Shown one piece after another: positions 3,775 to 24,304 of a stretch of DNA of 53,657 bases; positions within the stretch are counted from its first letter, which is position 1; the number at the start of each line of letters is the position of its first letter. The notes under the pieces are model-generated. The model saw nothing but the letters and a program-made list of their open reading frames with translations. It ran no database searches and was not told the origin of the DNA. The stretch is from Bacteroidota bacterium (lineage in GTDB: Bacteria > Bacteroidota > Bacteroidia > UBA8524): NCBI GenBank assembly GCA_008933805.1, contig WBUH01000011.1:117117-170773 (forward strand), given 5' to 3'. Made by a program: the position numbers and the translations under genes.

Positions 3775-4107
3775 TTACAGCGTTTGTCCTGTAGCTGTGC
3801 CCACGGCATCGTTCAAATCTTTCCAGGTGGTGTTCAACTCTGCCAAAAAAGATTTTCCCGCATCCGTTATTGAGTAATACTTGCGCGGCGGCCCTTGCTG
3901 ACTTTCTACCCAGCGATAGTTTAGCAGTCCTGCATTTTTTAGCCTCGTCAACAGGGGGTATAATGTCCCTTCTACCACCAGCAGACTTGCCTCTTTTAGT
4001 TTGGCCAGTATGTCTGATGCGTATATCTCCTCACGGGCTATAATGGCAAGAATGCAGTATTCAAGCACTCCTTTGCGCATTTGCGATTGTATATTATCTA
4101 AATTCAC
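3775..4107 (-). CDS. PadR family transcriptional regulator
   Basis: A 110-aa winged-helix repressor of the PadR family. It shows the family's N-terminal QMRKGVLEYCILAIIA helix, EGTLYPLLTRLKNAGLL (recognition helix, about residues 46-62) and the wing GPPRKYYSITDAGKSF. I chose the GTG at 4107 because family members start with a short N(L/I)(D/E)N leader before QMRKG; ATG 4080 is the alternative. A longer upstream reading frame exists but would run through the promoter box at 4112-4119 and a dispersed hairpin repeat at 4228-4262, so it is not used. A palindrome overlapping the promoter suggests autorepression. It precedes the PspC/head-GIN gene, its likely regulatory target. Confidence 0.92.
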   Translation of the reverse strand: MNLDNIQSQMRKGVLEYCILAIIAREEIYASDILAKLKEASLLVVEGTLYPLLTRLKNAGLLNYRWVESQQGPPRKYYSITDAGKSFLAELNTTWKDLNDAVGTATGQTL

Positions 4108-4111
4108 AATA

Positions 4112-4152
4112 CAAAGGTAAAGTAAAATTATAATACTATGCAATACATAGTA
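4112..4152 (-). promoter_or_regulatory. padR promoter with overlapping palindromic operator
   Basis: The minus strand carries an exact Bacteroidota -7 box TACCTTTG (4119-4112), with TTGC about 20 nt upstream as a weak -33 box. A perfect inverted repeat TACTATG-N5-CATAGTA (4134-4152) spans the -33 region. The predicted start of transcription falls within a few nt of the GTG at 4107, so the mRNA may be almost leaderless. PadR proteins commonly bind such short palindromes at their own promoters. Confidence 0.65.
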
Positions 4153-4227
4153 CCATTTAAAAGATAGTATTCTATAAAATGTAACTTTTTGAGGATGAAT
4201 GATTTTTTGAATACTTCTTTCGATAGG

Positions 4228-4262
4228 GGCAACAATACTGAGCTTGTCGAAGTATTGTTGCC
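4228..4262. repeat. Hairpin module of a dispersed intergenic repeat
   Basis: Perfect 12-bp arms GGCAACAATACT (4228-4239) and AGTATTGTTGCC (4251-4262) around an 11-nt loop containing GAGCTTGTCGA. The core CAATACTGAGC-TGTCGAAGTAT recurs in the mosaic elements near 24170 and 42230. It is followed by a GGAGGGACAGAGGGG tract that also resembles those elements. Confidence 0.75.
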
Positions 4263-4332
4263 TTGCGAAGGAGGGACAGAGGGGTTGACCTAAGCCGGTT
4301 ATATTATACCTTTGGTGTGAGGAAAACACAAT

Positions 4333-18919: not shown

Positions 18920-18992
18920 ATCCTCTACCATCATAATCGGTTTTGTCATCCAAATCAAAAAAATAGCTTGTTTATTTAATCCTTCATCATTT

Positions 18993-19009
18993 ACTTTGCA
19001 TTACAAAGT
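18993..19009. promoter_or_regulatory. Palindromic operator, copy 1 (ACTTTG-N5-CAAAGT)
   Basis: Perfect inverted repeat ACTTTG (18993-18998), spacer CATTA, CAAAGT (19004-19009), 11 nt before the ATG at 19019. It overlaps a TTACTTTG sequence resembling the -7 box. The downstream GTGCTTTTTAAA is also shared with copy 2 at 19973. Probable binding site of the winged-helix protein encoded at 19657. Confidence 0.65.
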
Positions 19010-19018
19010 GCTTTTTAA

Positions 19019-19660
19019 ATGAGCAATAAAGAAAATCAATTAAACGACCTGAAAGAGATACGCCAGTTGATGGATCGCTCTTCGCGATTCTTATCACTCA
19101 GCGGAATGTCAGGGGTTGCTGCGGGGGTATGCGGAATTGGCTCTGCCATTTTCACACACTTCTACCTTAGCAAGGAAGGGCTTCGTTCTACATTTGAATC
19201 GTATGCTTTTATTGAGGTTGAGCTTGAAAAGCGGGTAATTACCAACCTGTTGCTGATTGGTGCAATAACATTGGCACTTGCCATAGCATCAGCCACATTT
19301 TTTACCCTAAGAAAAGCAACAAAGAGCAAGCAAAAGATTTGGGATGCCACCACAAAACGGCTGTTTATAAATATGTTGTTGCCGTTGGGTGCGGGGGGCA
19401 TTTTTTGCCTGGCACTTTTGTACCATAACGAATATGGATTGGTTGCCCCTGCTACATTAGTATTTTACGGATTGGCGCTGCTAAATGCAAGCAAATACAC
19501 GCTTGACGAAATGCGCTATTTGGGCATCACCGAAATTGTGTTGGGTTTGGTAGCTATGTTTAATGTAGGCTACGGACTTGAGTTTTGGGCGGTAGGTTTT
19601 GGCCTGATGCACATTGTATATGGTTTGGTGATGTGGTATAAGTATGACCGTAAAGGATGA
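19019..19660 (+). CDS. Membrane protein of unknown function, first gene of a wHTH-regulated operon
   Basis: A 213-aa protein with a cytosolic N-terminus (NQLNDLKEIRQLMDRSSRF) and four or five hydrophobic segments (about 28-48, 75-95, 115-135, 140-158, 170-205). I do not recognise a named family, though similar proteins occur beside small winged-helix regulators in Bacteroidota. The stop codon overlaps the start of the regulator gene by 4 nt (ATGA), so the two are translationally coupled. That coupling and the operator directly in front suggest that the membrane protein and the regulator act together. Confidence 0.85.
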   Translation: MSNKENQLNDLKEIRQLMDRSSRFLSLSGMSGVAAGVCGIGSAIFTHFYLSKEGLRSTFESYAFIEVELEKRVITNLLLIGAITLALAIASATFFTLRKATKSKQKIWDATTKRLFINMLLPLGAGGIFCLALLYHNEYGLVAPATLVFYGLALLNASKYTLDEMRYLGITEIVLGLVAMFNVGYGLEFWAVGFGLMHIVYGLVMWYKYDRKG

Positions 19661-19956
19661 AACCACTACTTAACGGATTTGATAAGGCGTTTGAGAACCG
19701 CACACGGCTGGCAATAATGAGCGTGCTGATGGTGAACAGCAGCGTTGACTTTAACACGTTGAAGGAAATGCTGGATGTTACCGACGGCAATCTTGCCAGC
19801 CACATTACTGCGCTTGAAAAAGCCGGCTACGTAAGCGTGCAAAAGGGTTTTATAGGTAAAAAAACTAATACCACTTATGCCGCCACCCAAGACGGCCAAA
19901 AGGCGTTTAGAAACCACCTTGACAGTCTTGAAAATTTTATAAAAAATATAGACTAA
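19657..19956 (+). CDS. Small winged-helix transcriptional regulator
   Basis: A 99-aa winged-helix DNA-binding protein (HTH_27/ArsR-like shape). The N-terminal NRTRLAIMSVLMVNSSVDF helix, the LKEMLDVTDGNLASHITALEKAGYV helix-turn-helix (about residues 35-59) and a wing with FIGKKTNTTYAATQDG are visible. No metal- or ligand-binding domain is present. It overlaps the preceding membrane-protein gene by 4 nt. Two identical-arm palindromes, one before that gene (18993) and one just downstream before the next gene (19973), are its likely binding sites, so it probably represses both its own operon and the membrane-protein series that follows. Confidence 0.93.
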   Translation: MKPLLNGFDKAFENRTRLAIMSVLMVNSSVDFNTLKEMLDVTDGNLASHITALEKAGYVSVQKGFIGKKTNTTYAATQDGQKAFRNHLDSLENFIKNID

Positions 19957-19972
19957 TTTTTTTTGCATCTAC

Positions 19973-19989
19973 ACTTTGTATTTCAAAGT
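19973..19989. promoter_or_regulatory. Palindromic operator, copy 2 (ACTTTG-N5-CAAAGT)
   Basis: Inverted repeat ACTTTG (19973-19978), spacer TATTT, CAAAGT (19984-19989), with arms identical to copy 1 at 18993 and the same following (A/G)CTTTTTAAA. It starts 16 nt after the regulator's stop codon and 20 nt before the next gene. Confidence 0.65.
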
Positions 19990-20008
19990 ACTTTTTAAAA
20001 ATAAAAAA

Positions 20009-20740
20009 ATGATAATGAGTATCTCATCCACATTGCAACAACTGCTTCGGAACAAAGACGAAGTAGTAGGCCGTACACTTGGCGAAGGCTTGACCACCAA
20101 GGAGTTTACAGCCCTGTTCACCCTATGCCTCGGCCTGATGGTGGGCTACGGTCTTTTAATTGGTGCCCGCTACGATGCCTTGCAGGCGGCGGTATCGGCC
20201 ATCAAATTACCCCTCCTGTTTTTACTCACGGCGGCTATCTGTTTCCCTACCCTGTATATGTTCTTATCCTACTTGGGCATTCGACAGGGTTTAAAACAAC
20301 TGATGGGGCTACTACTGTTAAGCCTTACCTACATTAGTTTAGTATTGGCGGCCTTTGCACCGGTTACCTTCTTTTTCTTAATTACAACCAACGGGTATGA
20401 GTTTTATAAATTCATAAACATTGTGGTGTTTGGCATTGCAGGATTTATAGGCATCAGGCTTTTCTACGCGCAAATGGGTGAAATAATAAGTACCGCATGG
20501 CCTAAGCTGCAAGTAACCACTGACGAAGGCGGGCACTTGATTATGCCTGCAACTAACAATAAGCAAAAAGCGCAGTGGTTTCTGATGGCTTGGGCTGTAA
20601 TGTTTGCGTTGATTGGAGCACAACTATCCTATACACTTAGCCCATTCTTTGGCGACCCCACAAAAACGTTCATCCTGATAAATGAAGGCGGAAGCAATTT
20701 CTTTTTGGATGTAAGAGAAACGATAAGAAACATAAAATAA
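20009..20740 (+). CDS. Multi-pass membrane protein
   Basis: A 243-aa protein with about six membrane segments (from about residue 40 to 220). The N-terminus has LLRNKDEVVGRTLGEGLTTKEF. I place the start at ATG 20009 (MIMSISSTLQ; ATG 20015 is equally possible), because an upstream ATG at 19976 lies inside the operator. No named family is recognised. It heads the second part of the cluster and is followed after 18 nt by a DUF4173 protein, so it is part of the same transcript. Confidence 0.85.
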   Translation: MIMSISSTLQQLLRNKDEVVGRTLGEGLTTKEFTALFTLCLGLMVGYGLLIGARYDALQAAVSAIKLPLLFLLTAAICFPTLYMFLSYLGIRQGLKQLMGLLLLSLTYISLVLAAFAPVTFFFLITTNGYEFYKFINIVVFGIAGFIGIRLFYAQMGEIISTAWPKLQVTTDEGGHLIMPATNNKQKAQWFLMAWAVMFALIGAQLSYTLSPFFGDPTKTFILINEGGSNFFLDVRETIRNIK

Positions 20741-23027: not shown

Positions 23028-23312
23028 ATGTGGAAACTACAACTGGCAAGGTATTATGTGCCTGCAATTATAATCGGGGGCATTGTCATTCCGCTTATTG
23101 GCGGCTCTCTAAGTAATGATATTTCAGTAATGGTAGCATTAATGATACTAATGCTACTGGTATTTTTAGCTACATTCCCTATTGTTGGGATTATATATGT
23201 CACCACAAGCAGAAAGCAGCAATCGCTAAGTCTTGTTTATTTTGGGATGTCATTGGCGTGGGTGTTCCTAACGTTTGTGGCTTATAAACTTTACAATACC
23301 CCAATTATTTAG
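23028..23312 (+). CDS. Small three-helix membrane protein, tandem paralogue 1
   Basis: A 94-aa protein with three hydrophobic segments. It begins MWKLQLARYYVPAI and resembles the next gene along its length: the MWK-x-x-L-x-x-YY start, a charged spacer, a FPIVGIIY helix and a final W-V-hydrophobic helix. Function is unknown. It is the first of three adjacent copies at the end of the membrane-protein series. Confidence 0.78.
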   Translation: MWKLQLARYYVPAIIIGGIVIPLIGGSLSNDISVMVALMILMLLVFLATFPIVGIIYVTTSRKQQSLSLVYFGMSLAWVFLTFVAYKLYNTPII

Positions 23313-23359: not shown

Positions 23360-23656
23360 ATGTGGAAGGTAACGCTTACCAAATATTACCAAGTAATATT
23401 TGCTGCCTGTGCGCTGATAAGCCAACTTGCGGGGCGCATTTGGCTGGACGAGTGGCGATGGTTGCAAATAACACTACTGTTAATCGCTGCATTTGTTGGA
23501 ACGTACCCCGTTATTGTTTTGATTTACTTTTCATCGAAATCTAAGGATGAAATAGTGAATGCTATTCTAATCCTTTTGGGGCTTATTTGGGTGGTATTGG
23601 TGCTTTTTCTTTTCTTATTATACATGGAACCCTTTTTTGGAGGAAGTTGGGGGTAA
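23360..23656 (+). CDS. Small three-helix membrane protein, tandem paralogue 2
   Basis: A 98-aa protein starting MWKVTLTKYYQVIF. It shares the start motif, the YPVIVLIYFSSKS segment (compare FPIVGIIYVTTSR in paralogue 1) and the final LGLIWVVLV helix. The pair therefore derives from a tandem duplication. Unknown function; 47 nt separate it from paralogue 1. Confidence 0.78.
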   Translation: MWKVTLTKYYQVIFAACALISQLAGRIWLDEWRWLQITLLLIAAFVGTYPVIVLIYFSSKSKDEIVNAILILLGLIWVVLVLFLFLLYMEPFFGGSWG

Positions 23657-24029: not shown

Positions 24030-24304
24030 ACCTCCCTCTGTCCCTCCTTAGCTAGGAGGGATACCACGCGCTGCCCATTGAACACCGAATCAGTTTTAGT
24101 AACTGCTACTGCTATTGGGCAGGTGAGCTTGTGCGGTTGTTCCCCTCCTTTGCAAGGCATCAATACTGAGCCTGTCGAAGTATGCGCATAGGGCAAGGAG
24201 GGGTTAGGGGTGGTCGAAACAAGAGATTCCCAATCAAGTTGGGAATGACGGGATGCGGTCAGACCCTAAGTTGCTATCAATAGCATCGGGATTTATTCCC
24301 GATG
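24030..24304 (-). repeat. Mosaic intergenic element, copy A
   Basis: This gene-free stretch is colinear, on the minus strand, with the plus strand at 42105-42380. Shared blocks: the 21-nt palindrome 24284-24304 (arms CATCGGGA/TCCCGATG) with adjoining GCTATTGATAG; TTCGACCACCCCT; CGCATACTTCGACA followed by GGCTCAGTATTGATGCC; TTGCAAAGGAGGGGAACA; CCGCACAAGCTCACC; and the palindrome 24041-24061 (arms TCCCTCCT/AGGAGGGA). A further 21-nt palindrome sits at 24226-24246 (arms ATTCCCAA/TTGGGAAT). No reading frame of interest. It fills the gap between the membrane cluster and the ferredoxin gene. Confidence 0.8.

Follow-up and report, generated by a model that had tools for sequence, protein, structure and literature searches.

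Within the window, the 53,657-nucleotide stretch of Bacteroidota DNA analysed here, two neighbouring genes encoding a membrane protein (hereafter g1) and a small winged-helix regulator are framed by two copies of the palindrome ACTTTG-N5-CAAAGT (hereafter U and D), and further membrane-protein genes follow D in the same direction (Table 1). An earlier note on this DNA had placed two identical palindromes exactly where U and D are listed and had described a 4-nt overlap between the regulator ORF and that of its upstream partner; both descriptions were correct. The common sequence that it saw on the 3′ side of the palindromes is also there, in that CTTTTTAAA is present at both sites, in the contexts gCTTTTTAAA and aCTTTTTAAA. 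Its assignment of the 517-aa product to DUF4173 was replaced, because the Pfam match of this protein is DUF4153 (PF13687, cut-off 27). The 213-, 243- and 239-aa membrane proteins had no Pfam match above the cut-off.

Table 1. Genes and sequence elements of the locus, numbered from the first letter of the window
Feature	Position	Strand	Remarks
TTG, predicted -33 element of the U promoter	18968..18970	+	TTG at -24 to -26 from the palindrome in 69/99 U sites
TTACTTTG, predicted -7 box, contains the left half-site of U	18991..18998	+	T at -2 in 93% of 99 U sites
U, predicted operator, ACTTTGCATTACAAAGT	18993..19009	+	ACTTTG-N5-CAAAGT; retained in 99/100 ortholog loci
GCTTTTTAA, conserved arm after U	19010..19018	+	CTTT here in 83/99 U sites
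g1, 213-aa membrane protein, proposed partner/sensor	19019..19660	+	One N-terminal and six long helices
HTH_34 winged-helix regulator, 99 aa	19657..19956	+	PF13601, 99.9 bits; 1UB9, Z 16.2
T-tract before D	19957..19965	+	T in 80-97% at -15 to -9 of 79 D sites
D, predicted operator, ACTTTGTATTTCAAAGT	19973..19989	+	ACTTTG-N5-CAAAGT; retained in 79/100 ortholog loci
ACTTTTTAAA, conserved arm after D	19990..19999	+	CTTT here in 78/79 D sites
243-aa membrane protein, first gene after D	20009..20740	+	One relative behind D in 100 loci (cluster C23)
DUF4153 membrane protein, 517 aa	20759..22312	+	PF13687, 148.5 bits; found in 32 runs behind the regulator
239-aa membrane protein, cluster C3	22296..23015	+	20 relatives in runs behind the regulator
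94-aa membrane protein, same run	23028..23312	+	
98-aa membrane protein, same run	23360..23656	+	

The regulator belongs to the HTH_34 family by both its Pfam score (cut-off 27; residues 17-95 of 99) and its PH1061-like winged-helix fold, while no confident NCBIfam name was obtained for it. Its closest solved structure by sequence is 1UB9 (PH1061; E 3.4e-8, and 8.9e-13 in a profile search), which was also the top match in the structural comparison, with 97 residues aligned at an rmsd of 1.3 and 31% identity. AlphaFold2 modelled the regulator with a pLDDT of 92.9. Scores for the other winged-helix families considered lay below their cut-offs: 16.2 bits against 27 for PadR and 20.3 bits against 24.6 for MarR, a family of similar fold, in Pfam, and 28.7 bits against 55 for the ArsR/SmtB model HTH_metalloreg in NCBIfam. 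The score for Pfam HTH_5 was exactly at the cut-off of 22, and the protein contains no cysteine that could act as an ArsR/SmtB metal ligand.

The model of g1 (pLDDT 89.8) was used for a fold search, in which the best match had an E-value of 0.47 and no fold relative appeared in the PDB, so that no function can be assigned to g1 from its fold. The order of g1 followed by the regulator, tightly coupled, was found in 94 of 100 ortholog loci, the 4-nt overlap being the commonest arrangement. One locus (L139) has a regulator ortholog and both palindromes without g1, and two others (L107 and L133) carry an additional ORF of 205-207 aa between g1 and the regulator, with both palindromes retained. Long open frames had hinted at fusions of g1 with the regulator; these turned out to be out-of-frame readings and no fusions.

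The exact palindrome occurs twice in the genome of the window (4,293,661 bases in 40 contigs), at U and D only, and its reversed control pattern occurs three times, so that the count by itself is at the level of chance. When up to two mismatches were allowed, 315 copies of the palindrome and 335 of the control were counted per strand in the whole genome; there is thus no genome-wide surplus of weak copies. A one-mismatch site (G000:C1:386681) was dropped from consideration because it falls within a 306-aa ORF. The significance of the palindromes rests on their position and conservation and not on their rarity.

To define orthologs of the regulator, we used a threshold of E <= 1e-18, at which 128 of the 395 sampled genomes of the class contain one. 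Loci from 100 of these 128 genomes formed a first footprint set, in which a site was accepted when at least 11 of the 12 half-site bases matched, the upstream search covering 2 kb before the regulator and the downstream search extending from 20 nt before to 300 nt after its stop codon. The earlier note had held that its proposal would fall if the palindrome were missing upstream of orthologous clusters. We found it upstream in 99 of the 100 loci, L151 being the sole exception, and downstream in 79. For a second set we took 80 named loci from genome_contigs, five of which are also in the first; among them are Flavobacterium, Pedobacter, Mucilaginibacter, Chitinophaga, Hymenobacter, Spirosoma and two MAGs labelled Ignavibacteria; here U was present in 75 of the 77 loci with enough upstream sequence and D in 65 of 80, against 0.8 of 77 and 0.15 of 80 expected from shuffled sequences. 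In both sets, the palindrome is thus conserved at the promoter of the regulator's own operon. Four loci (L066, L072, L093 and L094) have extra genes between the site and g1, and there the site stands at the front of the longer operon. Among loci without D, the next gene was oppositely oriented in 6 of 21, as compared with 2 of 79 with D (p 0.0009). In five loci of family f5 (L067, L082, L083, L091 and L100), a helix-turn-helix/S24 LexA-like gene lies behind the regulator in place of D and the genes that would follow it.

The presence of the site also tracks that of the regulator across genomes. The exact palindrome was found in 115 of the 128 ortholog genomes (256 sites, against 84 for the reversed control), whereas in the 267 genomes without an ortholog it was found in 64 and the control was the commoner pattern (86 sites against 128). 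The separation was sharper for the extended site, CTTTG-N5-CAAAGT-N-CTTT, which occurs in 117 of the 128 ortholog genomes as compared with 5 of the 267 others (p 5e-80), its reversed control occurring, by our count, 7 times in all 395 genomes. Several of the 11 ortholog genomes without an exact extended site retain variants matching at 11 of 12 bases. Extended sites in two ortholog-less genomes (G010 and G198) look like chance matches, since no A precedes CTTTG; in the other three (G354, G365 and G372), no close ortholog was found even at a lenient threshold.

The context of the palindromes was compared with what is described of Bacteroidota promoters, for which the mapped Flavobacterium transcriptome gives a -7 consensus of TAnnTTTG at -12 to -5 (available part of PMC9723704). 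At U of the window the layout is TTG-N20-TTACTTTG, with the ATG at 19019, 9 nt past the palindrome. The 99 orthologous U sites share the consensus TTG-N20-TWACTTTG, and the ATG follows 6-10 nt past the palindrome in most loci. U thus has the arrangement of a primary-sigma Bacteroidota promoter, TTG about 20 nt before TAnnTTTG, with the reservation that A at -1 of the palindrome, the second place of the -7 consensus, is present in only 43% of the sites. The left half-site of U is predicted to be the -7 box itself, and transcription is predicted to start at about 19003, inside the palindrome. The earlier note had seen both palindromes as lying at likely promoters. At U, this agrees with the TTG and the T at -2 (Table 1). 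D sites have no clear -33/-7 pair: no TTG peak was seen, T occupied -2 in only 51% of the 79 sites, and a conserved T-tract 9-15 nt before the palindrome stands in place of these elements. A third arm, ACTTT after the palindrome, is conserved as well, and it fits a simple operator of two half-sites poorly.

These features have to be weighed against two readings in which the regulator does not bind the palindromes at all. Together with the adjoining T-rich sequence, they might act as RNA hairpins, either intrinsic terminators or leader structures. The 17-mer does fold into a 6-bp stem, with -3.8 and -4.3 kcal/mol at the two window sites, which is more stable than shuffled sequences (-3.8 against -1.2 on average) and is then followed by CTTTTTAAA. 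The stem is weak, however, and its evolution does not look like that of paired RNA: across 178 sites the half-site core is near-invariant, not one compensatory pair change was observed, changes at the outer pair were one-sided, and 22 sites have an A-C mismatch there. Moreover, copies precede genes, unlinked ones included, and their presence follows the regulator. We therefore rejected the hairpin or terminator, which we regard as very improbable. It is just as hard to credit that an alternative sigma factor uses the motif as its promoter while the regulator is a mere passenger of the operon, although a sigma factor that co-occurs with the site may exist. Such a view would account for the match of the left half to the -7 box TAnnTTTG (PMC9723704, in its available part) and for the fact that the motif precedes genes in a single orientation and has a conserved arm on its downstream side. 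It does not sit well with the perfect dyad symmetry and the 11-bp spacing of the half-sites, with the difference in promoter context between U and D, or with the tie of the extended site to the regulator ortholog. The two palindromes are almost certainly the predicted binding sites of the regulator, and their identity as operators is strongly supported by these comparisons of sequence. The earlier note's proposal that one regulator controls both halves of the cluster is likewise strongly supported, because the site recurs in the orthologous loci at U and D, tracks the regulator among genomes and coincides with a promoter at the first gene.

The genes in the runs behind the regulator, hereafter the cargo, were named from a single representative of each family. 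They include DUF4153 (32 genes), CreD (30), DUF1361 (22) and the diacylglycerol kinase family (17), and further, in different genomes, Coq4-like, DUF6688 and VIT-domain proteins and nameless families. We also examined 55 distinct, hand-picked remote sites, unlinked to the regulator. Where an ORF of 100 aa or more followed, the first such ORF came from a cargo family in 25 out of 42 instances. The remaining ORFs in these stretches gave 7 of 93, and some of these are second genes of the run in question. CreD stands behind such a site in L182 and DUF4153 in L167, L200, L209 and L214, and members of the small family C11 do so in many genomes; the targets of remote sites further included polysaccharide export, a C92 amidase and a protein with a weak DoxX-like match. 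Two of these loci (L167 and L209) have two tandem sites about 90-100 nt apart ahead of their DUF4153 genes. Remote sites from five genomes of genus g52 (family f5) precede a polysaccharide-export gene family. Of the 42 ortholog genomes that possess CreD, 35 have it within the regulator's cluster; CreD is also present in 61 genomes without a regulator ortholog and so does not depend on the regulator. Loss of CreD impairs envelope integrity in Stenotrophomonas, according to the available part of PMC4689548. The best explanation of these distributions is a regulon made of a g1-regulator core and an exchangeable envelope cargo, part of which is unlinked and yet bears the same site.

In the model of the regulator, the recognition helix comprises residues 43-55. 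Alignment of 61 orthologs showed D43, G44, N45 and H49 to be invariant and L46, A47 and S48 to be near-invariant. Distant paralogs were read at seven loci (30-39% identity), including one in the genome of the window. All seven have GNLSxQ at the position of the recognition helix, and no CTTTG-N5-CAAAG was found near them. At six of these loci, the regulator is preceded by a multi-helix membrane protein, about 195 aa long, whose layout is comparable to that of g1. The profile of this membrane protein aligns lengthwise with that of g1 at a probability of 78%, a kind of comparison that can be inflated for membrane proteins. The partner ends in IPG(Y/H/L) at six of the seven loci (L305-L310 and the own-genome copy, G000:C2:56335-56610). 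Since a membrane protein and an HTH_34 regulator recur together among the paralogs, the pair seems to be a recurrent two-gene module.

Taken together, these results lead us to consider it highly probable that the palindromes are operators of the HTH_34 regulator, through which it would repress its own operon and control the cargo at D, with g1 as the proposed sensor. Very likely the regulator would bind the palindrome as a homodimer, placing one recognition helix on each ACTTTG half; the halves lie 11 bp, or one helical turn, apart. A dimer at U would cover the -7 box and the start point. As the left half coincides with the predicted -7 box and the predicted start lies within the palindrome, binding should block initiation, and the regulator would thereby repress the g1-regulator operon. 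This overlap gives good reason to infer that the regulator is a repressor. At D, it would control the membrane-protein genes behind the palindrome, and at the remote sites the unlinked envelope cargo. We consider it unlikely that the bound regulator instead activates, or switches between activation and repression. If it did so, D would be the place to expect it, because the palindrome there is not over a recognisable -7 box and has a T-tract upstream; the position of U over the predicted -7 box and start point fits occlusion.

As for the signal, our hypothesis is that g1 tells the regulator when to release the DNA. It is the best candidate for a sensor because of its translational coupling to the regulator and because a comparable pair recurs among the paralogs. 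The alternative in which g1 is one more target and the regulator itself senses a soluble ligand is a serious one, to which we give only slightly less than an even chance. Related winged-helix regulators of the MarR type bind small ligands, and the locus with the regulator and both sites but without g1 (L139) speaks in its favour. The tight coupling of g1 ahead of the regulator in most ortholog loci, and the multi-helix membrane proteins that likewise precede six of the seven distant paralogs, speak for g1 as the sensor.

Several known systems resemble parts of this circuit. PH1061-like HTH_34 proteins (PF13601; 1UB9) have the same domain across the whole regulator. In the papers searched, we came across neither an operator nor a regulon assigned to PF13601, HTH_34 or PH1061; relative to these proteins, what is added here is a computationally defined operator, promoter overlap and regulon. 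In MarR-type systems, a palindromic operator lies on the promoter of the regulator's own operon. The autorepressors MexR, MarR and OhrR are similar to the present regulator in fold (Z about 12-13), whereas the regulator is shorter (99 aa), scores under the MarR cut-off and is coupled to a six-helix membrane protein. PadR operons combine a small winged-helix regulator with an adjoining membrane protein. Their layout is like that of the g1-regulator pair and occurs elsewhere in the window too, but the regulator scores below the PadR cut-off and its operator differs. In Gammaproteobacteria, the inner-membrane envelope-integrity protein CreD is a regulated target, as it would be here, of CreBC (PMC4689548, in the part available). 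CreBC, however, is a two-component system, whereas CreD here follows the predicted operator of a winged-helix protein of the one-component type in most of the ortholog genomes that have it. No paper on the regulator, its regulon, the palindrome or a DUF4153 function tied to the regulator was found in the literature searched. The general kind of the system is that of an autoregulated winged-helix repressor; its distinguishing features are the pairing with a membrane protein, the predicted reuse of the -7 box and a cargo of exchangeable envelope genes.

Elsewhere in the window, at 4135-4151, ACTATG-N5-CATAGT forms a palindrome of the same layout that is unique in the genome and lies immediately upstream of where a minus-strand regulator gene (ORF 3775-4329) probably starts. 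We take the product of this ORF to be PadR-like and the 755-aa protein that follows it to be PspC/DUF2807-like, and the region is possibly another autoregulated, membrane-linked circuit. An interspersed repeat, ACTGAGCYTGTCGAAGT, is located at 4237-4253 and 24165-24181; it has 10 copies in the genome, against none of the reversed control.

In the widest form of our interpretation, which is plausible although on balance somewhat doubtful, the locus would represent an envelope response found throughout the Bacteroidota and distinct from two-component systems. In it, a membrane protein of six helices and a conserved N-terminal one would hold or release a 99-aa repressor that uses the -7 box as a half-site, and the cargo would comprise CreD, DUF4153, DUF1361, diacylglycerol kinase, the C92 amidase and polysaccharide export; duplicates of the two-gene module with another recognition helix would run further circuits. 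The analysis supplies an exact predicted operator, a regulator and a list of targets for a circuit present in 128 of the 395 sampled genomes of the class. The overlap of a half-site with the predicted -7 box offers a testable mechanism of repression in a phylum whose promoters do not follow the textbook. DUF4153, CreD and several nameless Bacteroidota membrane families would be joined in one regulon, and because they are tied together in this way, their function may be approached through what induces the circuit.
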